From: Stomorhina lunata
Taxonomy: Eukaryota > Arthropoda > Insecta > Diptera > Rhiniidae
NCBI GenBank assembly: GCA_933228675.1
Contig: OW121743.1
Coordinates: 111,719,468 to 111,783,467 of the forward strand
Direction: 5' to 3'
DNA length: 64,000 nt
Part shown: positions 5,553 through 63,998 of the stretch, in pieces
How positions within the stretch are numbered: the stretch's first letter is position 1
Layout of the letters: each line of letters opens with the position of its first letter
The notes under the pieces: model-generated
The model's input: only the letters and a program-made list of their open reading frames with translations
Told to the model about the DNA's origin: nothing
The model's database searches: none
Position numbers and translations under genes: made by a program

Positions 5553-6820
5553 TTACTAGCTATACCCTGCATTCGTTGTTGCGCCACCAACAAAAATAAG
5601 TTTGAAGGAAAACCATTACACAAATATTCAATAAGATTAGAATAATGTTTGGTGGTGCCATCTATCGGTAATTAATCGATCCAACATAGAAACCTCCGTC
5701 GACTCATGAGCAACAACTTTGCTAAAGATCATGAAAAATTTTATATAAAAATAAAAAAAATTTGAAAAATTTCCTATAAAAATATTACATTTTTAAAAAA
5801 TTGCTAAAAAATAAGAAATTTTCGAAAAATTTCCTATAAAAATAAGAAATTTTTGAAAAATTTCCTATAAAAATAAGAAATTTTTGAAAAATTTCCTATA
5901 AAAATAAGAAATTTTTGAAAAATTTCCTATAGAAATAAGAAATTTTTGAAAAATTTCCTATAAAAATAAGAAATTTTTGAAAAATTTCCTATAAAAATAA
6001 GAAATTTTTGAAAAATTTCCTATAAAAATAAGAAATTTTTGAAAAATTTCCTATAAAAATAAGAAATTTTTGAAAAATTTCCTATAAAAATAAGAAATTT
6101 TTGAAAAATTTCCTATAAAAATAAGAAATTTTTGAAAAATTTTCTTTAAAAATAAGAAATTTTTGAAAAATTTTCTATAAAAATAAGAATTTATTTAAAA
6201 ATTTTCTACAAAAATATAAAATTTATTAAAAATATCTTATATAAATAGGAACATTTTTAAAAAATTTTTGAAAAATTTCCTATAAAAATAAGAAATTTTG
6301 GAAACGGTTTCTACAAAAACAAGAAATTTTTGAAAAATTTCCTAAAAAAAAGAAATTTTTGAAAAATTTCCTAAAAAAAAAAAAAAAAAAAAAATTAAAA
6401 TTTTTTTTTAAGTGGTACCATCTGACAAAAGTTAGTCACATCTTCATTGGGTCAGGCACATTAACTTTGCTTAAGATCTTAGCATGATCAAAGGCACAGT
6501 TTACGATTTAATTAGTTTTGAGTAATTTTCAGTGGTGCCACCTGTCGGAAATTGAGTATACCAACTTTACAACCTTCGTCGGCTCATGCGCAAAAACTTT
6601 GCTAAAGATCATAGGATTATCAAATGCACAGTTTACGATTTAATTAACTTTAAGCAATTTACAGTAGCGCCACCTGTCGGAACATGGTCATACCAACTTA
6701 TTAATGTTCGTCGGCTTATGAGCAACAGTTTTTTATGAGATCATAACATGAGCAAATGCATATTTTACTATTCTATAAAGGACATACAGACAAACGTTAA
6801 TTTTTATATATAGAAGGTAG
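5553..6820 (+). mobile_element. Helentron-like element with ~125-bp internal repeats, copy 1
   Basis: It opens with ACTAGCTATACCCTGC and a GCGCCACCAAC block, and closes with GGACATACAGACAAACG followed by TTTTTATATATAGAAG. Inside are four diverged units of 120-130 bp (about 5649, 6411, 6530, 6661). Each carries GGCGCCACCTGTCGGAA, then CGTCGGCTCATGAGCAA, then ACTTTGCTAAAGATCAT. This layout (ACTAGCT-type start, internal minisatellite, TATATATAGAA end) is typical of non-autonomous Helentron/HINE elements; that family call is inference. A 31-bp satellite (S2) has expanded between units 1 and 2. A reversed copy lies at 12384-12900. No helicase coding. Confidence 0.6.
5735..6395. repeat. Satellite array S2, 31-bp period
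   Basis: Unit A3-T5-G-A5-T3-CC-TAT-A5-TAAG, 31 bp. The region 5820-6150 is almost invariant and the 3' side decays into a poly(A) run near 6367-6394. The array lies inside the Helentron-like element, directly after its first internal unit. The unit differs from satellite E (26936 onwards) mainly in TAAG versus TAGT, so the two are close relatives. Confidence 0.9.
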
Positions 6821-10139: not shown

Positions 10140-10756
10140 CTGTACCTTTAAAAATTTTTTAACACAAATTTTTTCAAAGGTTTATGGGAAAAGTGTTTTT
10201 CTACAAATTTTATGTCGATGTAAAAATTTTTCTCAAGAAATTTTCATGAGAAATTTTACATCGAGAATTTTTCTATGAAAAAGATTTACATCAAGAAATT
10301 TTAATGAAAAAAATTGTAATAAATATTTTTTCATTAAATTTTTTTTTTTCTATAAAAAATTGTTATCAAATATTTTGATATGAAAAATGTCCATAAAACT
10401 TTTTTGTACAAAAATTTTTTTATAATTTTTTTTTTTTTAGAAAAATTTACTCGAAATTGCACCAAGAAATTTTATTGCTATAAGAAATTTTATATTAATC
10501 ATTTTTTTGTTTAAATGTTCTTCAAAAAATTTTTTACAAAAAATGTATATCAATAATTTTTCTTAAAAATTTTACATCAATAATTTTTATAGGAAAGTGT
10601 TCATAAAAAATTTGCCAAGAAATTTTCTTTGAAAAATTTGACATAAAAAATTTGAATATAAAATTTTTACTAGAAATTTTTCCAAAAAAAACTTGACTTC
10701 TTAAAAATTTTATTCAAGAAGTTTTTGGTTGAAATGTTTTATCGAAAATTTTTCTA

Positions 10757-10880
10757 GAAAGAAATTAATTTTAGTTGAACCAGAATTTATGTTGATGGTA
10801 GTGGGTTCGAGTCGGGCTCAGGTTCATGTCATAAAAAAAATAATTTATGACATGAACCTGAGCCCGACTCGAACCCACGA
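10757..10880 (+). mobile_element. Foldback element with B-box-like arm, copy 1
   Basis: Arms 10801-10834 and 10845-10878 are a perfect 34-bp inverted repeat beginning GTGGGTTCGAGTCGGGCTCA, with a 10-base loop. GGTTCGAGTC resembles a tRNA B-box, but no A-box or cloverleaf is seen. To the left, 10757-10796 (GTTGAACCAGAATTTATGTT) is the outer arm, whose inverted partner is absent here but present at 20095-20129 in the second copy. The element inserted into a satellite duplicate whose twin at 12217 is empty. Confidence 0.7.
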
Positions 10881-11057
10881 AAATTTTTCTATTAAAAAAA
10901 ATTTATTAAAAGGTTTATCAAAATTTGGGACATCAAACATTTAATTAAAAAGTTTTACTGTAGTGTATTGCACTAAGAATCCCAATTTATTACAATTATT
11001 TATTATTGTAATAAATAGTTTTTTGATAAAACCAAAAAATGTTGGTGGAGAAACCTT

Positions 11058-11103
11058 TCCTCGACGCGTTTCGATGGTTGGTTAGACCATCTCATCAGGA
11101 GGA
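11058..11103 (-). ncRNA. Type I hammerhead ribozyme, minimal stem III (left arm)
   Basis: Exact reverse-complement twin of the ribozyme at 11134-11179, with every core and stem base identical. The predicted cleavage is on the minus strand between 11063 and 11062. The two ribozymes are head to head 30 bp apart, so each strand of the palindrome encodes one. A transcript through the whole palindrome would also contain the antisense of the other and could fold into a long hairpin that competes with ribozyme folding. Confidence 0.88.
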
Positions 11104-11133
11104 TTATCCCTAATTATCCCTAATTAGGGATAA

Positions 11134-11179
11134 TCCTCCTGATGAGATGGTCTAACCAACCATCGAAACGCGTCGAGGA
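11134..11179 (+). ncRNA. Type I hammerhead ribozyme, minimal stem III (right arm)
   Basis: All core elements are present in order. Stem I is TCCTC (11134-11138) pairing with GAGGA (11175-11179). The conserved CTGATGA is at 11139-11145. Stem II GATGGT (11146-11151) pairs with ACCATC (11159-11164) across a 7-base loop. GAAA is at 11165-11168. Then comes ACGCGT (11168-11173) and the cleavage-site C at 11174. Self-cleavage is predicted between 11174 and 11175. Stem III is the self-complementary ACGCGT with essentially no loop. In known ribozymes of this form the stem works best between two copies, as a dimer. I see no missing core base. Activity is inferred, not shown. Confidence 0.88.
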
Positions 11180-12383
11180 AAGGTTTCCCCACCAACATTT
11201 TTTGGTTTTATCAAAAAACTATTTATTACAATAATAAATAATTGTAATAAATTGGGATTCTTAGTGCAATACACTACAGTAAAACTTTTTAAAAAAATTT
11301 ACATCACGAATTTTCAATAAAAAGTTTTTGCATTCAAATTTTGTTTCTTTAAAGAATTTTACATCAAAAATTTTTTTTTATAAAAAATGTTCATCAAAAA
11401 CTTGATGTAAAATTTAACATCAAAAATTTTTATATGAAAAAATTGGATCAAGCATTTTTTATATATTTTTTTTATTAAAAATTTTACACCAAACATTTTT
11501 TTATGAAAAATCAATAAAAAAATTTGACCTCAAAAATTTTCATTGGAAAAATTGGATTCAATATTTTTTTTATTAAAATCTATCCCCCAATTAATAAACA
11601 AATTTTAAAATTATCAAATTCTTATAATTTGAAATTTGTATGGAAAATTTGAAAAAAATTGTAATAAATATTTTTTCATTATATATTTTTTTTCTATAAA
11701 AAATTTTTATCAAACATTTTGATATGAAAAATGTCCATAAAACTTTTTTGTACAATATTTTAAAATCAAGAACTTTTCGATAAAAAATTATGAGTAGAAA
11801 ATTTCCATGGAAATTTTGGAATTCACAAGAATTTTTTAAAAATTTTTTTATAATTTTTTTTTTTTAGAAAATTTTACTTGAAATTTTTCAATGAAGAAAA
11901 TTGCACCAAGAAATTTTATTGCTATAAGAAATTTTACATTAATCACTTTTTTGTAAAAATTTTCATCAAAAAATTGTTTACGAAAATTTTATATTAATAA
12001 TTTTTCTTAAAAATTTTACATCAATAATTTTTATAAGAAAGTGTTCATAAAAAATTTTTCTACAAAAATTTTGCCAAGAAATTTTCTTTGAAAAATTTTA
12101 CATCAAAAATTTGTATATGAAATTTTTACTAGAAATTTTTCCATAAAAAACTTGACTTCTTAAAAATTTTATTCAAGAAGTTTTTGGTTGAAATGTTTTA
12201 TCGAAAATTTTTCTATGAAAAAATTTACATCACGAATATTCAATAAAAAGTTTGGATCAAACATTTTTGCATTAAAATTTTGTTTCTTTAAAGAATTTTA
12301 CATCAAAATTTTTTTTTGTAAAAAATGTTCATCAAAAACTTGATGTAAAATTTAACATCAAAAATTTGTATATGAAAAAATGT

Positions 12384-12900
12384 ATATAAAAATTAATGTA
12401 TGTCCTTTATAGAATATTAAACTATACATTTGATAATATTATTATCTTAAGAAAAGTTGTTCCACTTGAGCAGACGATTATTATTAAGTTGGTATAACCA
12501 AGTTCCGATAGGTGGCGCCACTAACATTTGCTTAAAGTTAATTAAATCTAAAACTGTGGATTATGTAGATTATGCTGTGATCTTTGGCAGAGTTGTTGCG
12601 CATGAGCCGACGAAGGTTTCTATATTAGTATGACCAATTTTCGATAGATAGCGCCACTGAAAATTATTCAAAATTAATTAAATCGTAAACTATTCATTTG
12701 TTCACGCTATGATCCTTAGCAAAGTTGTTGCTTATAAGCCAACGAAGGTTTCTAAGTTAGAATGACCAATTTCCGACAGGTGGAGCCACTGAAAATTACT
12801 CAAAATTAATTAAATAAAGTGATTCAAAATTAATTAGATATTTATTTAATATCTTTCCTTTATATTTACTTTAGTTGGTGAAAAGCGTGCAGGGCATCAA
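12384..12900 (-). mobile_element. Helentron-like element, copy 2
   Basis: Reverse-oriented relative of 5553-6820. It begins with TATATAAAAATTAATGTATG and GTCCTTTATAGAATA, the reverse of the other copy's 3' end. It contains about three diverged ~125-bp units bearing GGTGGCGCCACT, GCGCATGAGCCGACGAAGG and CTTAGCAAAGTTGTTGC. It ends at GTTGGTG followed by GCAGGGCATC, corresponding to the CTATACCCTGC start of copy 1. It lacks the satellite S2 insertion. The call rests on the match to copy 1; the superfamily is inferred. Confidence 0.6.
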
Positions 12901-14850: not shown

Positions 14851-15159
14851 CCAGGAGCCAAATTACCGCATTCGATATCGATCGAAAACTCTGACTTTTA
14901 AGCAAATATTGTAAAGTATACTTTAGGGATGTTCAAAGTTACTTCGATGCAAAAAGTTTATTGGTATCCATTTTGATTCGTTTTTAAATATAGTTCAATT
15001 AAAACTCTTTTACTATTGTTCATCTTTTAGCAAATAACTTAAAAAAATAGTAAACCATGCATCTTTTAAATAATTTTGATTATCCTTAAAGTATGCTATA
15101 CAAATGTTTTGAAAATATCTAAGACTTCGATCGATATCGAATGCGGTAAATTGGCCCCA
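14851..15159. mobile_element. CGATATCG-ended MITE, copy 1
   Basis: The left end GGAGCCAAATTACCGCATTC followed by GATATCGATCGAAAA is matched by the inverted right end TCGATCGATATCGAATGCGG followed by TAAATTGGCCCC. Further in, both arms carry the dispersed motif (GTATACTTTAGGGAT on the left, ATCCTTAAAGTATGCTA on the right). There is no coding. The same ends occur at 15155, 21815, 22558 and 51042. Its right end directly abuts the next copy. Confidence 0.75.
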
Positions 15160-15456
15160 GGGCCAAATCGCTGCATTCGATATCGACCAAAAACTGAAAC
15201 TTTTAAGTAAATATTGTGTAGCATACCTTAGGGATTTTCAAAATAATTTATTTTGCAAAAAGTTGTCAAAGTTTGTTTGTTAAAACATTTAGTTTAAATA
15301 AATTTGTTACTACACATCAGGAAACTTTTGACAAATAAGTTCCAATATAATAACTCATATTTTATATATTATTTAGGTTATCCTTAAAGTATGCTACACA
15401 AGTGGTACTGAAATATTTTAAATTTAGATCGTCAACGAATGCGGCGATTTTGACCC
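15155..15456. mobile_element. CGATATCG-ended MITE, copy 2
   Basis: Left end GGGCCAAATCGCTGCATTCG, right end GAATGCGGCGATTTTGACCC. The motif-bearing subterminal blocks are GTAGCATACCTTAGGGATT and ATCCTTAAAGTATGCTACAC. It is joined head to tail to copy 1 through a shared GGCCCCAGGGCC junction, suggesting insertion into the terminus of the first element or a tandem dimer. Confidence 0.75.
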
Positions 15457-20035: not shown

Positions 20036-20129
20036 GTTGATGGTCGTGGGTTCGAGTCGGGCTTAGGTTCATGTCATAATTTTTTTGTTTTTAACATAAA
20101 TTCTGGTTCAATTAAAATTAATTTCTTTC
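20036..20129 (+). mobile_element. Foldback element with B-box-like arm, copy 2
   Basis: Contains GATGGTCGTGGGTTCGAGTC followed by GGGCTTAGGTTCATGTCATA (20040-20079), the inner left arm of the element at 10757. After a short T-rich gap comes AACATAAATTCTGGTTCAAT (20093-20112), the inverted outer arm. The two loci together show that the intact element was a long inverted repeat. Each copy has lost a different part. Confidence 0.65.
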
Positions 20130-20230: not shown

Positions 20231-20696
20231 TGTTATAACATCTGTGAAGAGAATATTGTTCGTTATATCATTATTTTTCATTATATAATTTTTCGATATA
20301 TACATTTTTTTATAAGAAAAATTTTCTTTACAAAATTTTTATATACAAAAGTGTTAGATTAAAATTTTCTAATAAAAATATTTAAATATGTTTTAAAACA
20401 TATTTTTATATAAAATTGTTCAATTGAAAAATCCGACTTTAAATGTGCCAACTTTTTGAAACCCCTTTACAGTGCTTTTGTCTTTAGTTGCCAAAAAAAG
20501 TAAAAACAAAATTGTGGGAAGAAAAAACAAAACACATGAACCTGAAGAATGATTAAATCCGTTTAGGTAACAATTTTCGCTTTATTTTGATATTTTGAAT
20601 AGACATTATAATTCGTATTAAGTTTGTCTTACAAATTAGAAATAAAAACAAAAAAAATAGTTTTTAATTTGACTAGAATTAGAGATACAACTTCTG
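20231..20696. other. AT-rich unique DNA
   Basis: No gene. ACATGAACCTGA near 20533 matches the end of the foldback arm at 10850-10862. It may be a remnant, which would place foldback pieces on both sides of this gap, but 12 bases is weak evidence. Confidence 0.4.
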
Positions 20697-20815
20697 ATAA
20701 TAATGGACTAACCAACCATTAAGGAAAGGTTATCCTCAACAACATTTTTTTGGTTTTATTGACAAAATTGTTTCTTACAATGATAAATAACTGTAATAAA
20801 TTGTTATCTTTTTTA
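20697..20815 (+). mobile_element. Relic of the ribozyme-bearing palindrome arm
   Basis: Aligns with 11145-11270 through GACTAACCAACCATTAAGG, GGAAAGGTTATCCTCAACAA, TTTTTTTGGTTTTATTGACA and AATAACTGTAATAAATTG. The bases corresponding to CGAAACGCGTCG of the hammerhead are deleted, so no ribozyme could form. Old, diverged single arm. Confidence 0.75.
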
Positions 20816-21814: not shown

Positions 21815-22130
21815 GGGCCCAAACGTCGTATTCAATATAGATCGAAATGTGAGAAATTTCAGAAACATTTGTGTAGCAGACTTTTAGGATCATCTAAATA
21901 ATATATACGTATAGAGATTACAACATAGTAAATTATTTGTCAAAAGTTGTTTGATAGTAAAATAGTTTTATTACAACAAAATATGTTGACAAACAAACGG
22001 ATATGTTTAGATATTAATTTTATAAAACTTTTTGCAAAATAAATTATTTTGAAAATCCTTAAGGTATATTACATAATATTTGCTAAAAGTCTGAGTTTTC
22101 GATCAATATCGAATGATGCGAGTTGGCCCT
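21815..22130. mobile_element. CGATATCG-ended MITE, copy 3 (diverged)
   Basis: Left end GGGCCCAAACGTCGTATTCA followed by ATATAGATCGAAA. Right end TTCGATCAATATCGAATGAT followed by GCGAGTTGGCCCT. The subterminal motif block GTGTAGCAGACTTTTAGGAT is present on the left. Older than copies 1, 4 and 5. Confidence 0.7.
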
Positions 22131-22557
22131 TGTTAGGAAGCAATTTTGCAAAACTAGAACATAATGAAAGCTGAGGTAATATTAAGATCTAGCCAGGGAT
22201 TTTTTTTGCAAAAATGTTGTGTATAATTTTAGGAAATCAAAATTATATACATATATAATTTAATTTAATTTAAAAACTTCTAAATTTGTTCTTCATTCGT
22301 TAATTCTGTTCAGTGTACTGCACAAATTAAAAGCAATCTTTTTGTAAAGCAAAACAAACTTAATTGAAATTCTTTATGATTTATTGAATGTATTAAGTAC
22401 TTTAACATGAAGATACAAACAGAAATTAGTTATAACAAATTAGAGCAAATACCAAATGAAGACAAATCTATACAAAAATATCAAAAGCAATAGAAATCAG
22501 TGGTCGGCAATAAAGAATTTTATATACCCTTCAGTCTGATAGATTTTCTTTTGTGAC
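22131..22557. other. AT-rich unique spacer
   Basis: No gene or repeat recognised between two MITEs of the same family. Confidence 0.5.
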
Positions 22558-22882
22558 CTGGGCCCTAATTACCGCATTCAATATCGATCGAAATCTTAGA
22601 TATTTTCAAAATATTTATATAGCATACCTTAAGGATGATCAAAATTATATAAAAGATGCACAGTTTACTATATTTCTTTTTGTAGTTATTTGCCAAAAGA
22701 TGACCAATAGTAAAGGAGTTTTAATTAAACTATGTGTTCTTAAAAACTAATCAAAATGGATACCACATTTTAATAAACGTTTTCCATCGAAGTAACTTTG
22801 AACATCCCTAAAGTATACTTGACAATATTTGCTTAAAAGTCTGAATTTTCGATCGATATCGAATGCGGTAATTTGGCCCCTG
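22558..22882. mobile_element. CGATATCG-ended MITE, copy 4
   Basis: Left end GGGCCCTAATTACCGCATTC, right end TCGATCGATATCGAATGCGG then TAATTTGGCCCC. The interior matches copy 1 closely (for example ATAAAAGATGCACAGTTTAC against its reverse in copy 1). It abuts and appears to truncate the TATGTGACCC foldback on its right. Confidence 0.75.
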
Positions 22883-22995
22883 GTCTATGAAAAGGTGGCT
22901 TATGACTCAAAAATAAAATTTCGAAAAATTAGCTAATTTTTTTTTGTTTTTGTGTTATAAGCCACCTTTTCCCTTTTCATGGAACGGGTCACATA
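22883..22995. mobile_element. TATGTGACCC foldback, longer copy
   Basis: GGTCTATGAAAAGGTGGCTT on the left is answered by AAGCCACCTTTTCCCTTTTC on the right, ending GGAACGGGTCACATA. The outermost TATGTGACCC of the left end, seen at 17771, is missing here and replaced by the neighbouring MITE, which suggests the MITE arrived later. Confidence 0.7.
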
Positions 22996-29325: not shown

Positions 29326-32000
29326 TTCAATTTCCTATAAAAATTGTAAATTTTTGAAAAATTTCTTATAAAAATAGTAAACTTTTGAAAAACTTCCTAT
29401 AAAAATAGTAGATTTTGAAACATTTCCTATAAAAATAGTAAATTTTTTAAACATTTCCTATAAAAATAGTAAATTTTTGAAAAATTTCCTGTAAAAATAG
29501 TAAATTAAAAAAAAAATTCTTATCAAAATAGTAAATGTTTAAAAAACTTCATATAAAAATAATAAAATTAAATTTTTGAAACATTTCCTATAAAAATAGT
29601 AAATTTATGAAAAATTTCCATAAAACCAGTAAATTTTTGAAAAAAATCCTATAAAAATAGTAAATTTTTGAAAAAAATCCTATAAAATAGTAAAATATTG
29701 AAAAATTTCCTAAAAAAAATAGTAAATTTTTGAAAAATTTCCTATAAAAATAGTAAATTTTTGAAAAATTTAATATAAAAATAGTAAATTTTTGAAAAAT
29801 TTCTTATAAAAATTCAAAATTTTTGTAAAATTTCCTATAAAAATATTAAATTTTTGAAAAATTTCCTTAGTAAATTTTGAGACATTTCCTATAAAATAGT
29901 AAAATTTTGAAACATTTCCTATAAAAATAATAAATTTATGAAAAATTTCCATAAAACCAATAAATTTTTTAAAAATTTCCTATAAGAATAGTGAATTTTT
30001 AAAAAAATTTCCTATAAAAATAGTAAATTTTTGAAAAATTTCCTATAAAAATAGTAAATTTTTGAAAAATTTCCTATAAAAATAGTAAATTTTTGAAAAA
30101 TTTCCTTTAAAAATAGTAAATTTTTGAAAAATTTCCTTTAAAAATAGTAAATTTTTGAAAAATTTCCTATAAAAATAGTAAATTTTTGAAAAATTTCCTA
30201 TAAAAATAGTAAATTTTTGAAAAATTTCCTATAAAAATAGTAAATTTTTGAAAAATTTCCTATAAAAATAGTAAATTTTTGAAAAATTTCCTATAAAAAT
30301 AGTAAATTTTTGAAAAATTTCCTATAAAAATAGTAAATTTTTGAAAAATTTCCTATAAAAATAGTAAATTTTTGAAAAATTTCCTTTAAAAATAGTAAAT
30401 TTTTGAAAAATTTCCTTTAAAAATAGTAATTTTTTGAAAAATTTCCTATAAAAATAGTAAATTTTTGAAAAATTTCCTATAAAAATAGTAAATTTTTGAA
30501 AAATTTCCTATAAAAATAGTAAATTTATGAAAAATTTCCTATAAAAATAGTAAATTTTTGAAAAATTTCCTATAAAAATAGTAAATTTTTTAAAAATTTC
30601 CTATAAAAATAGCAAAACTTTTGAAAAATTTCCTAAGAATAATAGTAAATTTTTGAAAAATTTCCTATAAAAATAGTAAATTTTTGAAAAATTTCCTATA
30701 ACAATAGTACATTTTTTAAAAATTTCCTATAAAAATAGTAAATTTTTGAAAAATTTCCTATAAAAATAGTAAATTTTTGAAAAATTTCCTATAAAAATAG
30801 TAAATTTTTGAAAAAATTCCTATCAAAATAGTAAATTTTTGAAAAATTTCCTATAAAAATAGTAAATTTTTGAAAAATTTTCCTATAAAAATAGTAAATT
30901 TTTGAAAAATTTCCTATAAAAATAGCAAAACTTTTGAAAAATTTCCTAAGAAAAAAAATTTCCTATAAAAATAGTAAATTTTTGAAAAATTTCCTATAAA
31001 AATAGTAAATTTTTGAAAAATTTCCTACAACAATAGTACATTTTTGAAAAATTTCCTATAAAAATAGTAAATTTTTGAAAAATTTCCTATAAAAATAGTA
31101 AATTTTTGAAAAATATCCTATAAAAATAGTAAATTTTTGAAAAATTTCCTATAAAAATAGTAAATTTTTGAAAAATTTCCTATAAAAATAGTAAATTTTT
31201 GAAAAATTTCCTATAAAAATAGTAAATTTTTGAAAAATTTCCTATAAAAATAGTAAATTTTTGAAAAATTTCCTATAAAAATAGGAAAATTTCCTATAAA
31301 AATAGTAAATTTTTGAAAAATTTCCTATAAAAATAGTAAATTTTTGAAAAATTTCCTATAAAAATAGTAAATTTTTGAAAAATTTCCTATAAAAATAGTA
31401 AATTTTTGAAAAATTTCCTATAAAAATAGTAAATTTTTGAAAAATTTCCTATAAAAATAGTAAATTTTTGAAAAATTTCCTATAAAAATAGTAAATTTTT
31501 GAAAAATTTCCTATAAAAATAGTAAATTTTTGAAAAATTTCCTATAAAAATAGTAAATTTTTGAAAAATTTCCTATAAAAATAGTAAATTTTTGAAAAAT
31601 TTCCTATAAAAATAGTAAATTTTTGAAAAATTTCCTATAAAAATAGTAAATTTTTGAAAAATTTCCTATAAAAATAGTAAATTTTTGAAAAATTTCCTAT
31701 AAAAATAGTAAATTTTTGAAAAATTTCCTATAAAAATAGTAAATTTTTGAAAAATTTCCTATAAAAATAGTAAATTTTTGAAAAATTTCCTATAAAAATA
31801 GTAAATTTTTGAAAAATTTCCTATAAAAATAGTAAATTTTTGAAAAATTTCCTATAAAAATAGTAAATTTTCGAAAAATTTCCTATAAAAATAGTAAAAT
31901 TTTTAAAAAATTTCCTATAAAGATAGTGAATTTTTAAAAAATTTCCTAAAAATAGTAAATTTTTGAAAAATTTTCTATAAAAATTGTAAAATTTTGAATA
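29326..32000 (+). repeat. Satellite array E2, 31-bp period, large
   Basis: About 85 units of the 31-bp E monomer. The core 31040-31870 is almost invariant. Marker variants recur. AGCAAAACTTTTG followed by CCTAAG occurs at 30611 and 30923 (312 bp apart). ACAATAGTAC occurs at 30701 and 31030 (329 bp apart). This indicates duplication of a roughly ten-monomer block. The 5' part (29326-29990) is degenerate. Confidence 0.93.
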
Positions 32001-33655: not shown

Positions 33656-35290
33656 AAATTAAATAATACTTATAGGAATTTTTTCAAAAATTTAGTATTT
33701 TTTTATAGGAATATTTTCAAAAATTTACTATTTTTGTTTTTATAGGAAATTTTTCAAGAAATTATAAGAAATTTTTTAAAAATTTACTATTTTTATAGGA
33801 AATTTTTCAAAAATTTACAATTTTTATAGGAAATTTTTGAAAAATTTACTATTTTTATAGAAAATTTTTCAAAAATTTACAATTTTTATAGGAAATTTTT
33901 CAAAAATTTACTATTTTTATAGGAAATTTTTCAAAAATTTACTATTTTTATAGGAAAATTTTCAAAAATTTACTATTTTTATAGGAAACTTTTCAAAAAT
34001 TTACTATTTTTTATAGGAAATTTTTGAAAAATTTACTATTTTTACAGGAAATTTTTTAAAAATTAACAATTTTTATAGGAAATTTTTCAAAAATTTACTA
34101 TTTTTATAGGAAATTTTTCAAAAATTTACTATTTTTATAGGAAATTTTTCAAAAATTTACTATTTTTATAGGAAATTTTTCAAAAATTTACTATTTTTAT
34201 AGGAAATTTTTCAAAAATTTACTATTTTTATAGGAAATTTTTCAAAAATTTACTATTTTTATAGGAAATTTTTCAAAAATTTACTATTTTTATAGGAAAT
34301 TTTTCAAAAATTTACTATTTTTATAGGAAATTTTTCAAAAATTTACTATTTTTATAGGAAATTTTTCAAAAATTTACTATTTTTATAGGAAATTTTTCAA
34401 AAATTTACTATTTTTATAGGAAATTTTTCAAAAATTTACTATTTTTATAGGAAATTTTTCAAAAATTTACTATTTTTATAGGAAATTTTTCAAAAATTTA
34501 CTATTTTTATAGGAAATTTTTCAAAAATTTACTATTTTTATAGGAAATTTTTCAAAAATTTACTATTTTTATAGGAAATTTTTCAAAAATTTACTATTTT
34601 TATAGGAAATTTTTCAAAAATTTACTATTTTTATAGGAAATTTTTCAAAAATTTACTATTTTTATAGGAAATTTTTCAAAAATTTACTATTTTTATAGGA
34701 AATTTTTCAAAAATTTACTATTTTTATAGGAAATTTTTCAAAAATTTACTATTTTTATAGGAAATTTTTCAAAAATTTACTATTTTTATAGGAAATTTTT
34801 CAAAAATTTACTATTTTTATAGGAAATTTTTCAAAAATTTACTATTTTTATAGGAAAATTTTTCAAAAATTTACTATTTTTATAGGAAATTTTTAAAAAT
34901 TTACTATTTTTATAGGAAATTTTTCAAAAATTTACTATTTTTATAGGAAATTTTTCAAAAATTTACTATTTTTATAGGAAATTTTTCAAAAATTTACTAT
35001 TTTTATAGGAAATTTTTCAAAAATTTACTATTTTTATAGGAAATTTTTCAAAAATTTACTATTTTTATAGGAAAATTTTTCAAAAATTTACTATTTTTAT
35101 AGGAAATTTTTAAAAATTTACTATTTCTGTAGGAAATTTTTGAAAAATTTCCTACTTTTATAAGAAATTTTTCAAAAATTTACTATTTATTTTTAGGAAG
35201 TTTTTAAAAATTTACTATTTTTATAGGATTTTTTTTAAATTTATTGTTTTTATAGAATTATTTTTTTTTTCATTTATTATTTTTATAGGA
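33656..35290 (-). repeat. Satellite array E3, 31-bp period, inverted
   Basis: Reverse complement of satellite E (T5-ATAGG-A3T5-C-A5T3-ACTA). About 50 units, with 34075-34860 almost invariant. With E2 it forms an inverted pair separated by 1.66 kb. Confidence 0.93.
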
Positions 35291-36382
35291 ATTTTTGTTA
35301 AAAAGATAAATATTTTTTAAAACCTCCTAAAAGTATATAACAAAAAATTTTCTTCGAAAACTCGTTATTTCGTGTCAAATAGTAGTGGGAAAATCTGCTA
35401 CCGATTTAAGAAACAAGTATTTTTCTAACAAATTTTAATGAAACCACTGTACATCTCTAAAAATATTTACCCATTTATATGCACTCAAACGATGCTTACT
35501 CTGCTATACTCAAAACCTTTAAGTAAAATAAATAAAAAACGACAAAATAGCGAAAAAATAGTTAAAGCAACCACAACAATTTTCATTAATACTCAACACC
35601 TGTTTGCAAAGCAATAAAAACTAACAAATTCACGCACAAACTTGCACTCGAACACCTTCTTCCTTCATTCGTCCTCCCTTGTTGCCATTGCTCGTAAATG
35701 CAATTTTTAATAATAACAAAAAAGAAGATGCTTTTCTAACTTTAACATTGTAACAAAATGTTTATAAAAGCAAATACTCGTACCATAAAAATCGACAGTT
35801 TCAACAACGGCATGTGTATTCGCATGTGATCCCTCCAAAGAGCAGTTGCATCAGCAAACGGCAGCGAGATGCAATAAAATTAACGAGGTGGGTGGTCTTC
35901 GGCATTTTTAGCTTTCGAAAAGGAATAAAACCGGGTGCTTTTAGCTTTTATTGCATACTGAGAAAATTAGAAGCAAGAAATGATGGGAATTTAGAGCAAA
36001 AGTTTAATAAAAGATAATTTGAATGAGTTTATGGGAAAAATGAGGAATGACACTTAAACGTTTTGGAATACATTGAGGTCAGCTTTATAAAGTGAATACA
36101 GAACAGACATTTAAGTAAAAGGTTAAACGTGAAGATGTTGAAAAATTTAAGTGATGAATTAGTTAGATTTGTAAGAATCCAAGATTGTAAGCGAAATTTT
36201 GTTAATTTTCATAAAATGTCTAACTGTATACTTTTAGGATGTTGTAAATAAATTTTATTTAAATTAAACAAAAAACCATACCCGTTAGTTAAAGCTAACT
36301 ACTCGATAGGTACCATGATCAATGCAAATCAACATTGTAACTTTGAGTTGAGACATTTACATATTATACTCAACTGTAATAG
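35291..36382. other. Unique AT-rich DNA
   Basis: Motif copies lie at about 35323-35343 and 36220-36240. The 67-codon frame at 35814-36017 (plus) lies in a locally GC-richer patch but shows no domain. No gene called. Confidence 0.5.
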
Positions 36383-37940: not shown

Positions 37941-38116
37941 TTTAAAAAGAAAGACTATTCGCATTTGATACCAAATCTGTTATTTTTATTTATTAATGTC
38001 GAGGAATTTTGGTTTCTCTGCAAAAAATTTTTGGCTTTTTATCAATAAATTGATCTGTTTCATTAATAAATAAATGTAACAGAGTTGGGATCAAATGCGA
38101 ATAGTCATTCTTTTTA
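37941..38116. mobile_element. Foldback MITE inserted in satellite F1
   Basis: TTTAAAAAGAAAGACTATTC then GCATTTGAT on the left is answered by ATCAAATGCGAATAGTCATT then CTTTTTAAA on the right. Complementarity continues inward through TTATTTATTAATG/CATTAATAAATAA. The interior holds TGTCGAGGAATTTTGGTTTC. No coding. It splits one array in two, so it is younger than the array. Confidence 0.75.
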
Positions 38117-38440
38117 AAAAATTTTTTGATAAAAAAATTTTCTATAAAAAATTTTTTGATAAAAAAAATTTTCTATAAAAATTTTTTATCAAAAAATTTT
38201 TTATAGAAAAAGTTTTGATACAAAATATTCTATAGAAAAAAAAAAAAATTTTTGATAAAAAAAATTTTCTATTGAAGAGATTTTGATAAAAAAAAATTTT
38301 GTAAAAAATTTTTGATAGAAAAATTTTCTATAAAAAAATTTTTGATAAAAAAAAATTTCTATGGAAAAACTTTTGATAAAAAACTTTTCTATAAAAAAAA
38401 TTTTCTATAAAAGAATTTTCTATAGAAAAATTTTTGATTA
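38117..38440. repeat. Satellite array F1, second part
   Basis: Continuation of the TTGATAAAA/CTATAG units after the MITE, irregular period, both orientations. Confidence 0.8.
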
Positions 38441-38477
38441 AAAAAAAAATTGACTAGAAAACTTTTTTGTTTTTAAA

Positions 38478-38600
38478 TACGAAAAAATACCTGTTTTAGT
38501 AAAAAGTTTTAAAAACGGCAACCCTGGCGACGATTTTTTTGTTCTGTTCTCTTTGAGCCGACCTCTGCTTTTAAACATAAGCATTTTTAAATCGCACTCG
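38478..38600 (+). mobile_element. 'CGGCAAC' module, copy 1
   Basis: TACCTGTTTTAGTAAAAAG, then AAAACGGCAACCCTGGCGAC, then TTTTTTTGTTCTGTTCTC, then TTTGAGCCGACCTCTGC. The same series occurs at 43905 (plus) and 46262 (minus), always at the opposite side of an F-type satellite from the AGAAGCCGAAG module. Origin unknown. Confidence 0.7.
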
Positions 38601-41035
38601 TAAATATAATTTGAGAGAATTAAGAAGTGTTGCATACTTAAGGGCCATTATTTGTTTTTCTTGGATATGATCATAGCTTTTTTATTTGAGATTCGTTTAA
38701 TAACTGATCAAATAAAAATATACAGATATAAAATCAGGCTTACGAAAATTATACAAAAAGTGTTGCATACATTAGAGCGTTTAAGTATAACTCTTTAAAA
38801 TACGAAATGATAAATGAAATATTATATCTATATATTTAATGATGTAAATTAACTATATAAATTTAAATGTCAAGAACTGGTGTATACTTTAAGGGATTTT
38901 GACTTAAGCTTTGAAATGTTCAAGTTCTTGGAAATATGTGTTGCATGCTTTAAGGCTTTATTGAGTATTTTGTATACATAACAATTAAGTGTTCAAATTT
39001 TAGTTATGATCTTTGAAATGCAAAATTCTCCTTCAGGGCTACGGATAACATTTTTTTTTTAATTTCTTATTAAAGCAATTTTTGCAATATTTTATTTTCT
39101 AGCATTTCTGCAACATTTCATTATTGAACATTTTCCAGATAAAATATTTTCTTAGTGTGGCTTATGAGCTAAAATAAAACACATGGCTCCGCATAGAAGA
39201 AAAAGAAAAATTATTGTCTAAAAGTGCGAAACAAAAAGGTCATAAATACTCCTTAGTGTTTTGTTAGTTATTAATAAAACACGTGCAAATTCCTTACATA
39301 AGCAAGAAAAAATATAAAGTATAAAATATTTTCTATTTAGTTTTAGTTTTTTTCCTTACAAAGTATTTTTTCTACTTCCTGTTATTGGACAGTACGTAAG
39401 ACCGTCCGTCGTCGTCCTGCATGAGTCTTAACAAATGACTTCCACTGGGGGTGCTAAAACAGTACAACCATATTGCAATAAAAATTATTACATTTAAAAC
39501 AAAATGCTTTGGTATAGTATTGGGAAATGGAGAAAATTGTGTAACACAAAAAATACATACAGTAATGGAAATAAAGTGCGAATAAATTGCTGGTGTTGGA
39601 AGGAAAAAGTTTTGAGTTTTTCTAAAATTAAAATTTATGTTAAAAAAGTAATTACATTTCACTTGGGGTAAAATAAATTTAATAAATGAATTTTATATGT
39701 TTAGAAAGTAATTAGATTGGTATTAAATTTGGGAAATTCCTAGGAATATTTTACTGCATCGATAACGGTAAAAACTTTATTTTAGGTGTTTCTTAGTTCT
39801 AGTGAATTTGAAATTATTAAATTTATATTCTTTTGAAATAGAGAAAATCCCCAAAATACTCTGTTTATATATAAATGCAATTTTACACCAGGCAACACAA
39901 TTTAATAGTGCTATAAAAGTGTCAGTGGCTGAATATAGTCACTCGAAATACAAAACGTCACTTATTAAAATTGTGTTGCATATTTTTAGGAGAACCAACA
40001 AAATATTTTTTTTTTATAAAATAAATAAATTTTCCTTCTTCACCAATTATTTAAAGAAATATATAATTTCGTTGAGATCATATATGAAGAACTATATTTT
40101 TAACTTAAAGTAAAACAATTGTATTGAATATTTTCTGGAACTCCTTAAGAGAAACAATACCAATTGTCTAAAATATCTTAGCCTAGATTTCTTCAAAATG
40201 CTCTAATATGACCCTACAACAAACGATTTTGCAGCTCCATATTTCTAATTCCAGGAGTTCTTCAAAATATTTATTTAAAACTTATTTTTTCCTAGAACGT
40301 GTTAATGTCTATTCTCATATAATATTGCTTTGTATTCCTCTTATTTCATCTCCATAAATTTTTCAAATCTATTTCTATTTTCATTTGAAATATACTTTTC
40401 ATTTTATAAAGAATTTTTCTTTTTTCCAACTTAAAGAATTTCACTTTGAAACTTAAGTTTTTTTTTTTGTTGTTTTCATTTGTTCTTCTTTATTCCGAAT
40501 TGGTATGATCAAATGCATACATTCATTTTAGACTTGTACAAATATTTGTCTCTAAAGAGTGTTTGAAAAGCAAAAAAAAAAGTAAAAAAAACTCATAAGA
40601 AATGTTAAAGTATAACAAGGATTTCCCATACTGACAGGTAGAAAATGTTTTGAACATCTGAGGCTATTAACAGACCATGTGCACCACAACAAGAGTTCAG
40701 CCATCTTTTAGTTGTTGAAGGAAAATGGTTGGAAAATATAGATAAAATGAAAAACGTGCGTCACAAAACTTTGTTTGGAGTCATTGATAAGTTATATGGG
40801 AAAGATAGAGTTTAGAAGGACACAAATTCCAAAAAGTGTTAGTCAAATCAAAAAAAAGTTTAAAGTAATCATAATTGGGTAATATCAATTCATTCAATTG
40901 CTCTTCCTATCTTATTTATATGATTAGATGTCTCGAAACATCTTGACTCAAGTTAATCATAATTTGTTCATGCCATAATCATAGTTTCACTTAATCATAG
41001 CTTTCCATACCAGACGTTTATATGATCACATCCAT
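38601..41035. other. Unique AT-rich DNA with clustered motif copies
   Basis: Dispersed-motif copies lie at 38627-38646, about 38760-38778, 38880-38896, 38938-38957 and 39973-39992. The frames 39372-39662 (minus, 96 codons) and 39802-40113 (plus, 103 codons) show no recognisable domain and no splice or promoter context. I do not call them genes. Confidence 0.5.
39973..39992 (+). repeat. Dispersed 20-bp motif copy
   Basis: GTGTTGCATATTTTTAGGAG in unique DNA, one mismatch from the reverse consensus in its core. Confidence 0.65.
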
Positions 41036-43815: not shown

Positions 43816-43904
43816 TTTGAGAACAATTTTCGATAAAAAAAATGTTTGTGACCAATTTTTGGTAAAACAATTTTTTAATAGAACAATTTTTGATAAAAAA
43901 GCAT

Positions 43905-43975
43905 ATATAAAAAACGGCAACTCTGCCTACGATTTTTTGGTTCTGTTCTCTTTGTGCCGACCTGTGTTTATAAGT
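43905..43975 (+). mobile_element. 'CGGCAAC' module, copy 2
   Basis: AAACGGCAACTCTGCCTACG, ATTTTTTGGTTCTGTTCTC and TTTGTGCCGACCTGTGTT, matching 38478-38600 and the reverse of 46262-46345. It is directly followed by segment P copy 2. Confidence 0.7.
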
Positions 43976-43978
43976 AAT

Positions 43979-44210
43979 AGTTTAACTTTTGAACATCCTA
44001 AACATATGCAACACAATCTTTGAAATGTAATTTTTATCACATTCGGTCACCAGAAAGAATTAGGAAACAATATTTCGCAGTATAACAATATATCTGTAGT
44101 ATATTTTGAGGAGTTCGGAAAAAAATAAAATTTATCTATAACCCCCCTTAAAATAGGCAATAAAATCTTTTTGCGATATCTTGATAATTTTGATTCTTAA
44201 CTGATATTGG
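43979..44210 (+). repeat. Duplicated segment P, copy 2
   Basis: Diverged counterpart of 36383-36595 in the same orientation, starting with the motif CATCCTAAACATATGCAACA. Its position after, rather than before, the satellite-bearing modules implies rearrangement or a former tandem arrangement of the composite. Confidence 0.6.
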
Positions 44211-45534: not shown

Positions 45535-46198
45535 CACAGGCCTACAAATATTGGGGTCATGGAAGTTGTTGGAAAATGGAGGGTCATTTCCGAAGTAATT
45601 TTTTCCGTAGAATCCGAATCCGGGGTCCGAATTGCTCTATCACGTCAGGATTTTGAGATATTTGAGGTTTTTTACCCAAAAAATGGCGTTTTTGGCTACT
45701 TTTGAGGTTATGTACAGAAGAGACAAAATTTTTTGGGAGTTTTTTTTTAGTTGCATCTTATAGCACTACTCTTCCTCTTTAATTTAAGAGTCGCAGAGTT
45801 CAATTACGATTTTTCTACACCAAGTTACGTCAATTTGAAATTACGAGATATGTCCTATTAATTGCATGACCATTTGCATTGAATACGGGACTCCCGCTCG
45901 TAATTTCAAATTGACGTAACTTGGTGTAGAAAAATCGTAATTGAACTCTGCGACTCTTAAATTAAAGAGGAAGAGTAGTGCTATAAGATGCAACTAAAAA
46001 AAAACTCCCAAAAAATTTTGTCTCTTCTGTACATAACCTCAAAAGTAGCCAAAAACGCCATTTTTTGGGTAAAAAACCTCAAATATCTCAAAATCCTGAC
46101 GTGATAGAGCAATTCGGACCCCGGATTCGGATTCTACGCAAAAAATTACTTCGGAAATGACCCTCCACTTTTTGACAACAAAACCATGTTGGCCTGTG
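45535..46198. mobile_element. Giant young foldback (two ~300-bp arms)
   Basis: The left arm ends at 45847 and the right arm begins at 45897, around a 49-base loop. The inner ~285 bp of the arms (from GGAGGGTCATTTCCGAAGTA inwards) show a single mismatch by eye. The outermost ~40 bp are diverged and unequal. Arms contain GGGGTCCGAATTGCTCTATC, TGGCGTTTTTGGCTACTTTT and CAAGTTACGTCAATTTG. No conserved coding, and target duplications are not obvious. Near-identity implies a recent origin or gene conversion between arms. Family unknown. Confidence 0.85.
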
Positions 46199-46249: not shown

Positions 46250-46345
46250 TTTAAAATTTGTGCTAAAGGTCATAACCGGAGGTCGGCACAAATAGAACAG
46301 AACAAAAAAATCGTGGGTAGAGTAGCCGTTTTTAACAAAAATAGG
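46250..46345 (-). mobile_element. 'CGGCAAC' module, copy 3
   Basis: Reverse complement of the copies at 38478 and 43905: GGAGGTCGGCACAAATAGAA, then CAGAACAAAAAAATCGTGGG, then AGTAGCCGTTTTTAAC. It lies just outside the right arm of the giant foldback and just before satellite F3. Confidence 0.7.
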
Positions 46346-46384
46346 TATTTTTTTCAAAGATCAATAATGTTTTAAAAAAAAAAA

Positions 46385-47280
46385 TTCCACTCCATTTTTT
46401 AAATATTTATTTCAAAAATTTTCTATGGAACATTTTTCTATAGAAAATTTTTTTATCAAAAATTTTTCTATAAAAAATTTTTGATAAAAAAAATTTCTAT
46501 AGAAACATTTTTGATAAAAAAATTTTCTATAAAAAAATATATTTTTTTTAATTTTTTCTAAAGAAAATTTTTCGATAAAAATATTTTTCTATAGAAAAAT
46601 TTTTGATAAAAAAATTCTCTATAGAAAATTTTTTGATAAAAAAAATTTCTGTAGAAAAATTTGATAAAAAAAAAATTTTTTCTACAGAAAATTTTTCTAC
46701 ACCAAAATATTTCTATCGAAAATTTTTCTATAGAAAAATATTTTTCTATTTTCTTTAGAAAAAATTTAAAAAAATATATTTTTTTATAGAAAATATTTTT
46801 ATCAAAAATTTTTCTATAGAAATTTTTTTTTATCAAAAATTTTTCTATAGAAAATTTTTTTGTCAAAAATTTTTCTGTACAAAATTTTTTATCAAAAATT
46901 TTTCTATACAAAATTTTATTATCAAAATTTTTCTACAGACAATTTTTTTATAAAAAATTTTAAGAAAATTTTTCTACAACAAAATATTTTTATTAAAAAT
47001 TTTTCTATACAAAACATTTTTATCGAAAATTTTTCTACAGAAAAAAATTTATACAGAAAAATTTTCTTTTGAGAAAAATTTTTATAACAAATTTATATAA
47101 ATTTTTTTTTTTTTTATTTTTAGATAGAAACAAAAAATTTTTATTCAAAATTTTTACAGAAAAATATTTTTTATTGCAAACAGTTCTATAAAAAATTTTT
47201 ATCGAAAAATTTTTCAAATTTTCCAAATGTTTGTATAAAAAAATGTATCGAAGATATTTAAAAAATATTTTTTATTTATA
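46385..47280 (-). repeat. Satellite array F3
   Basis: Irregular CTATAG/TATCAAAA units of about 28-31 bp, more degenerate than F2. Enclosed by the CGGCAAC module on its left and the AGAAGCCGAAG module on its right, so the whole composite is inverted relative to 36666-38600 and 41036-43975. Confidence 0.85.
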
Positions 47281-51041: not shown

Positions 51042-51343
51042 GGGGCCAAATCGCAGCATTCGATCAGACTTTTAAGACAATGTTGTATAATATATCTTAA
51101 GGATTTTGAAAATAATTTATTTTCAAAAAATTTAATAAAATTTGATATATAAACATATCCATTTGTTTGTCAAAACAGTTTAAATGAAATTCTTTTGCTA
51201 TTACGAAACTTTTGACAAGTAAGTTACAATGTATTGAAACTTATATGTTATATATTATCCTCAAATTATCCTCAAAGTATGCTTCACAAATATTTCTAAA
51301 TATCTTACATTTCGATCGATATCGAATGCGGCGTTTTGGCCCC
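51042..51343. mobile_element. CGATATCG-ended MITE, copy 5
   Basis: Left end GGGGCCAAATCGCAGCATTC (with the following CGATATCGAT partly deleted), right end TTCGATCGATATCGAATGCG then GCGTTTTGGCCCC. Subterminal motif block ATCCTCAAAGTATGCTTCAC on the right. The 70-codon frame across it is not a gene. Confidence 0.72.
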
Positions 51344-51464
51344 AGATATGTTAATTTTACACTAGCTACAAGTTGTTTCCCAAGCAATTTTTTTTTTGAA
51401 ATTTCAACATTAATCAACAATTAATCGGAAACTTTAGAAACATTTTCAATAATTTTAAAAAGGG

Positions 51465-51595
51465 TTTTTCAAAAATTTTGGGACGTCAAAAATTTAATTA
51501 AAAAGTTTTACTGCAGTGTATTGTACTAAGATCCCAATTTATTACAATTATTTATTATTGTAATAAATAGTTTTTTGATAAAACCAACAAATTTT
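51465..51595 (+). mobile_element. Relic of the ribozyme palindrome, left outer arm and flank
   Basis: Aligns with 10917-11037: TTTGGGACGTCAAAAATTTA, AAAAAGTTTTACTGCAGTGT, then ATTGTACTAAGATCCCAATT and TTATTGTAATAAATAGTTTT. The match includes sequence outside the palindrome, showing that the parent element continued beyond it. It stops before the hammerhead. Confidence 0.75.
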
Positions 51596-51634
51596 GTTAA
51601 AATATTCTTAAGGAATGCTTTTATTATCATTATA

Positions 51635-63730: not shown

Positions 63731-63998
63731 TCATGATGAACATAGGGCATCTACAAAATCTCTCCATTGGGAACGGTCATTGGCTAGGGACTTGATTTCA
63801 TTCCACGTTTTATTTAATTTCGCTCCTTCTTGCTTTATCACTCTGATCCATGTATTACGTGGACGTCCTGGAAGGCGATGTCCTGAAGGATTCCAATCAA
63901 GAGCAGCTTTAGGTATTTCGCCAGTAGGTCTGCGTAAGACATGTCCTATCCAGGACCATTTTTGACGTCGGATTTAGATTTCAATTGGCTGACAGGAG
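63731..63998 (-). pseudogene. LINE (RTE-like) C-terminal fragment with internal stop
   Basis: Reads leftwards in a single frame from the window edge to a TGA at 63733-63731. It contains WSWIGHVLRRPTGEIPKAAL, DWNPSGHRLPGRPRNTW and NDRSQWRDFVDALCSS. These are the conserved tail motifs (IGH.LR, W.P.G.R..GRP..TW, D...WR..V..LC) of RTE-like LINEs. An in-frame TAA sits at 63976-63974, just before the RRQKWSW block, probably a CAA-to-TAA change, so the copy is not coding as it stands. The rest lies off the right edge. It is better preserved than, and tail to tail with, the LINE remnant at 63250-63693. The short ATG-containing 3' tail CATCATGATGAA may mark the 3' terminus. Confidence 0.8.

Follow-up and report, generated by a model that had tools for sequence, protein, structure and literature searches.

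Dispersed type I hammerhead ribozymes are well known from the non-coding DNA of animals. According to the excerpts of PMC7761336, the hammerheads of animals are taken to serve retroelements whose mobility passes through RNA, but what the ribozyme does in Penelope-type elements is still described as unknown. The locus described here lies in a 64,000-nucleotide stretch of Stomorhina lunata DNA (the window). It is a near-perfect palindrome with a hammerhead motif in each arm, and it resembles in its workings a small retroelement that carries a hammerhead.

The animal non-LTR retrozymes, as excerpted from PMC7229834, are alike in having a type I hammerhead, a short, low-GC, non-coding unit in the range of 150-450 bp and a target duplication of more than 4 bp. 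The present element is also a small non-coding unit without an LTR (~210 nt; GC of the palindrome, 31%), but it forms an inverted dimer, and none of the four family loci in the window has tandem (head-to-tail) units. Penelope-like elements and Terminons (excerpts of PMC7761336 and PMC11167929) resemble it in their dispersed type I hammerheads with a weak helix III in non-coding DNA. Their minimal hammerheads usually have no non-conserved helix III nucleotides (PMC7761336, in part), whereas here helix III is a single A-U pair closing a palindromic CGCG, and there is no tandem pseudo-LTR. The window ORF list and six short translations contain no Penelope-like protein and no intact reverse transcriptase ORF; the longest ORF in the window (149 aa) is of low complexity. 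A one-pair helix III with a palindromic tetraloop is described in the excerpted text of PMC7229834 for the satellite or retrozyme hammerhead of newt and axolotl, to which we liken ours by description only; the present locus differs in not being a satellite and in its head-to-head, not head-to-tail, arrangement. The preliminary description, which spoke of a minimal stem III of Penelope type, was only partly apt, since the form of helix III resembles the amphibian one rather than that of Penelope-like elements, as far as the excerpts describe them. Within the window, the element does not formally qualify as an animal retrozyme, for which tandem units are missing, or as a Penelope-like element, from whose usual hammerhead the form of helix III differs; it may nonetheless belong with the retrozymes, the Penelope-like elements or the SINEs.

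Two further systems are comparable. The SINE-like SMalpha element of Schistosoma mansoni is, by its description in part of PMC8490949, a short non-coding retroelement with a type I hammerhead; the tandem copies are absent here. In the fold-back inverted duplications at DNA ends outlined in excerpts of PMC10622511, an inverted repeat likewise lets a strand prime its own copying, whereas here the duplication is 170 nt long and lies within a transposable element. Among the literature matches listed, as excerpted, none described an inverted hammerhead pair or a fold-back pair with readable junctions.

Results

A type I hammerhead motif in each arm

Read outwards from the centre, each arm carries TCCTC-CTGATGA-GATGGTctaaccaACCATC-GAAA-CGCGTC^GAGGA, one copy on either strand. 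The right-arm copy lies at 11134-11179 (plus strand), with cleavage predicted after C11174, and was recognized by the descriptor and, below the gathering score, by Rfam RF00163, with stems I and II also appearing in the predicted RNA fold of the arm. The left-arm copy lies at 11058-11103 (minus strand), with cleavage predicted after 11063, and follows from the descriptor and the symmetry of the arms. According to the descriptor, the motif has what defines type I: three helices with stem I open, a core made up of CUGANGA and GAAA, and UH preceding the cleavage site. Loop II has 7 nt, and an outer stem I of GGGA/UCCC was read from the sequence by eye. A complete type I hammerhead in each arm, as first proposed from the letters alone, is thereby confirmed at the level of the descriptor.

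The stem-aware descriptor, which requires the hammerhead core plus stems, matched two places in the 64 kb, and both are the palindrome arms. As a control we used 100 simulated 64-kb sequences for each of two Markov orders. Matches to the loose descriptor averaged 0.05 (order 1) and 0.14 (order 3) per sequence, and none of the simulated sequences had a match with both stems of at least 5 bp. Chance does not explain the motif pair. Hammerhead core words alone were matched 2 and 23 times in viral and prokaryote contigs, respectively. We judged all 25 matches to be chance because none has a stem I of more than 2 bp (stem II reaches 5 and 6 bp in two of them). The exact 29-nt core stretch had no match in viral contigs, and a distant-similarity search of 10945-11292 against plasmids found no match.

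A check with the Rfam type I covariance model, proposed in the preliminary description, bore the motif out in extent: RF00163 was matched over its full length in 11117-11200. The score was 22.0 bits (E 0.0014 for 84 bases), under the gathering score of 34. Across the whole window Rfam gave no match at the gathering score. A search of 10900-11350 brought up Hammerhead_3 once per strand, at 13.9 bits and E 6 against a gathering score of 48.5, and no other hammerhead entry; all 29 matches up to E 10 in this interval fell below their own gathering scores. We set aside the microRNA and sRNA matches among them, since any long hairpin scores well with models of that type.

The right arm appears to be a copy of the left

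The inverted-repeat search returned arms of 178 nt at 10939-11116 and 11121-11298, 98% complementary and separated by 4 nt. After trimming, the left arm spans 10947-11116 (minus strand) and the right arm 11121-11290 (plus strand), each 170 nt long, with a single mismatch (11049). The loop TCCC (11117-11120) lies between TAATTA at 11111-11116 and TAATTA at 11121-11126, so that the centre reads GGATTATCCC-TAATTA-TCCC-TAATTA-GGGATAATCC. The near-perfect palindrome noticed at the outset therefore holds. Its description as a 166-bp arm around a 16-bp spacer refers to the same object, but counted the inner TAATTA pair as spacer in place of 170-nt arms and 4 nt. The GC content of the palindrome is 31% (window, 0.12-0.35 per 2 kb), and no ORF of at least 100 aa in the window ORF list overlaps it.

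The arms differ in how they end. A stretch of 41 nt (10906-10946, minus strand) prolongs the left arm only and is absent beyond the right arm, which ends at CTTTTT and is followed by the target array. The extension is common to a relic of the family at 51451-51596, with an alignment score of 42 that none of 3923 random 51-nt window stretches (both strands) reached. It is AT-rich and array-like, and arrays supply the runner-up matches (79% over 39 nt, E 3.8e-5). We nevertheless rejected the reading that it is mere array, because it fits the flank of the relic better than all 3923 random stretches.

The left arm looks like the native one, as it alone carries the 41-nt extension shared with the relic, and the right arm seems to be its recent duplicate, made by fold-back. 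Since the arms differ at one position in 170, the second hammerhead motif can be read as a copy of the first. Most likely the locus holds one independent ribozyme, not two, the pair being a single ribozyme copied by fold-back. The head-to-head pair, which had been put forward as a striking arrangement, is accordingly not supported as a meaningful one.

Target-site duplication and unoccupied site

The whole insertion measures ~386 bp (10906-11291) and is assigned to the minus strand, on which the left arm, presumed to be native, has its hammerhead in sense orientation. A paralogous stretch at 12064-12431 lacks the insertion and represents the unoccupied site. The left flank (10878-10905) aligns with 12202-12227 and the right flank (11292-11327) with 12218-12253. 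The two flanks overlap by 10 bp (12218-12227, AAAAAATTTA), which is the target-site duplication, with its left copy at 10896-10905 and its right copy at 11292-11301. A flanking repeat of at least 11 nt at the real spacing occurred in 0 of 1946 local background pairs, and window-wide in 144 of 1999 pairs, owing to tandem arrays. Because such arrays give flanking repeats throughout the window, the unoccupied site is the stronger argument. The target of the insertion is an AT-rich repeat array.

Relatives within the window

The element belongs to a dispersed family with four loci in the window: the palindrome and three relics. The two relics reported initially (near 20697 and 51465) were recovered, and a third, weaker one was added. 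The relic at 51451-51596 (minus strand) shares the outer arm and the 3' extension and lacks the whole ribozyme half, in agreement with the earlier remark that one relic has lost the ribozyme core. The relic at 20677-20803 (plus strand) has largely kept stem II, but CTGATGA has become CTGATAA and ~9-10 nt of the GAAACGCGTC stretch are gone. By eye, its outermost stem II pair is A-T versus G-C, with both sides changed, and its innermost pair is broken.

The weaker relic (37998-38125, plus strand) scored 103, compared with a maximum of 65 in 300 Markov sequences; nhmmer gave E 1.3e-6 and BLAST E 0.005 for the first 48 nt. Its similarity to the family starts at GTC|GAGGA, so that the predicted cut follows after 3 nt, and the letters GTC may match by chance. 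That this start marks a ribozyme footprint is suggestive only, as we estimate that ~7 of 170 start positions would lie equally close. If so, the boundary would be a genomic trace of ribozyme cleavage that can be counted genome-wide.

In a self comparison, the 3' end of this relic (partner ~38061-38115) recurs as an inverted copy at 37944-37998 (minus strand). This makes two inverted loci out of four, and in both of them the inverted copy ends at AAAAAG/CTTTTT. No inverted partner was found at the 20677 and 51451 loci in the comparisons made. We also considered whether the AT-rich arrays belong to the element and rejected this, because, when the borders of 16 arrays were inspected by eye, the arm turned up at a single one, the array with the 37998 relic.

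Predicted RNA folding

Folded alone as RNA, the right arm forms stem II with a probability of 0.86-0.92 and stem I with 0.42-0.56, while helix III has a probability of 0. In the minimum-energy fold of the ribozyme alone, the core GAUG pairs with CGUC in place of helix III, which may be an outcome of energy models without tertiary contacts. The RNA of the full palindrome is predicted to form a hairpin of -285.6 kcal/mol, in which the probability of both stem I and stem II is 0 to six decimals. On both strands the antisense arm precedes the sense arm, and a growing transcript is therefore predicted to pair while it emerges. This co-transcriptional picture comes from plus-strand transcripts folded at equilibrium over a series of growing lengths, and was extended to the minus strand by symmetry.

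The hairpin should therefore mask both ribozymes in transcripts that read through from either side, and cleavage would need transcription to start near the centre, or another copy with a single arm. The earlier statement that cleavage and hairpin folding compete was too generous, given that the antisense arm comes first in both directions. If the locus is transcribed, the likely product is double-stranded RNA that could feed small-RNA silencing; inverted element copies feeding RNA silencing are an idea found in the excerpts of PMC1431729. The locus would then illustrate how such an element, instead of giving self-cleaving RNA, could become a source of double-stranded RNA.

Discussion

Origin of the palindrome

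Our preferred explanation, to which we give a probability of roughly 55%, is that a short non-autonomous retroelement was copied into cDNA that primed itself by folding back, and that the resulting hairpin DNA was integrated. The element would measure ~210 nt between the palindrome centre and its 3' end and carry a single type I hammerhead close to the 5' end. In ordinary copies, cleavage of the transcript after GUC would define where the element RNA begins. In the present case, RNA would have been reverse transcribed from the 3' end (10906) towards the 5' end, and the new strand, ending in TAATTA, would have folded onto the TAATTA four bases upstream. Copying primed in this way would have run for 170 nt and halted 41 nt before the end, and the hairpin DNA would have entered the AT-rich repeat array, duplicating 10 bp of the target. 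RNA from the locus, if it is transcribed, would be a 170-bp hairpin with neither ribozyme active in read-through transcripts. Of this account, the motif, the arms and their asymmetry, the target duplication, the unoccupied site and the relics can be read from the sequence, whereas reverse transcription, self-priming, cleavage in vivo and silencing are deduced.

The TAATTA-TCCC-TAATTA centre is exactly what a strand ending in TAATTA would yield by priming on itself. In a DNA energy model, a 41-nt strand ending at TAATTA has its last six bases paired (-2.0 kcal/mol). For 60-nt stretches ending at the centre another hairpin beats the self-priming one as the minimum-energy fold, and the self-priming step is possible, not proven. 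Several observations count against a retroelement: no A-tail is visible, no reverse transcriptase was identified, and all four loci are non-tandem, unlike the known animal retrozymes. If the retroelement reading is correct, this young copy, with its readable fold-back junction, target duplication and unoccupied site, would give a concrete picture of one integration.

The palindrome could also be the usual form of transposition rather than an accident of it, with ribozyme-trimmed RNA giving self-primed hairpin DNA that integrates, such that palindromes would record the 5' ends of RNAs. Two inverted loci out of four, and the family similarity of one of them beginning only 3 nt away from where cleavage is predicted, speak for this route, which we regard as doubtful. 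The same inverted loci bear on an unlikely competitor, a foldback or MITE-like DNA transposon moved by a transposase, with the hammerhead inside long terminal inverted repeats. The common AAAAAG/CTTTTT end of both inverted copies favours an element with terminal inverted repeats and disfavours random stopping. The window also contains several other palindromic or inverted families of differing age, and a 10-bp target duplication is compatible with such an element, since some DNA transposons make duplications of this length. Inverted repeats of this kind would reach both ends beside the target duplication, however, and here only the right arm does; 41 nt of family sequence separate the left arm from the duplication, and the loci at 20677 and 51451 showed no inverted partner.

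A fold-back at the DNA level, in which a single-arm insertion later became palindromic when a strand primed on itself at a break or at a fork that had stalled, predicts the same centre. The window has other palindromes, and excerpts of PMC10622511 propose this route for inverted duplications at DNA breaks. The copy ends inside the element and the right flank continues precisely from the target duplication, a point that a later event could have hit only by chance, and we consider such an origin quite improbable. Under the retroelement reading, fold-back is most simply placed on the cDNA before or during integration, given that the copy halts within the element while the target duplication is present in the flank. 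It is very improbable that the locus is a functional head-to-head double ribozyme, for example with outward transcription from the centre giving one sense hammerhead per RNA. Both motifs are intact, the right arm alone is predicted to fold into stems I and II, and most tested invertebrate type I hammerheads cleave as monomers, according to the excerpts of PMC7229834 and PMC7761336. The intactness follows from recency, however, a promoter at the centre is hypothetical, and transcripts entering from either side would form the hairpin first; moreover, amphibian hammerheads with a comparably weak helix III need same-sense dimers for efficient cleavage (excerpts of PMC7229834, PMC6155905 and PMC7761336). 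Whole-genome amplification can create artificial palindromes (PMC6218980, in part), but an artefact of assembly or amplification is hardly credible here, in view of the arm mismatch, the asymmetric ends and the target duplication, and the other palindromes in the window have arm identities of 68-95%.

Other repeats in the window

A small tRNA-like palindromic element (10743-10891) adjoins the hammerhead insertion on its left. It has 35-bp inverted arms (10801-10835 and 10844-10878) and contains GGTTCGAGTC, which we take to be a box-B-like motif. Its 14-nt flanking repeat, CGAAAATTTTTCTA, lies at 10743-10756 and 10878-10891, the right copy stopping 4 nt short of the target duplication of the hammerhead insertion. 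A single-arm relative occurs at 20036-20126. The large palindrome at 45565-46179 (242-bp perfect stem, 49-nt centre, 94.5% over 615 nt) is, by the look of its letters, a young foldback structure of another family. An inverted-repeat family with CGATATCGA-type ends is found at 14851-15250, 21827-22130, 22555-22883 and 51043-51345, with 69-87% likeness to the first.

The open stretch at 63734-63973 presumably resembles the C-terminus of a reverse transcriptase of LINE type; it had no Pfam match and no homologue by protein search. A Pfam search of six translated window stretches gave one sub-threshold match only. By eye, a repeat with AGGTCGGC(A/T)CAAA(G/T)AGAACAGAAC borders three AT-rich arrays (~38446-38650, 43900-44100 and 46280-46414). 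Two arrays of a 132-bp unit, at 6463-6772 and 12485-12815, also appear related by eye and lie beside AT-rich minisatellites. Finally, the 31-bp minisatellite arrays at 29329-31998 and 33762-35304 have a common unit in opposite orientation, with a 1.8-kb spacer between them.
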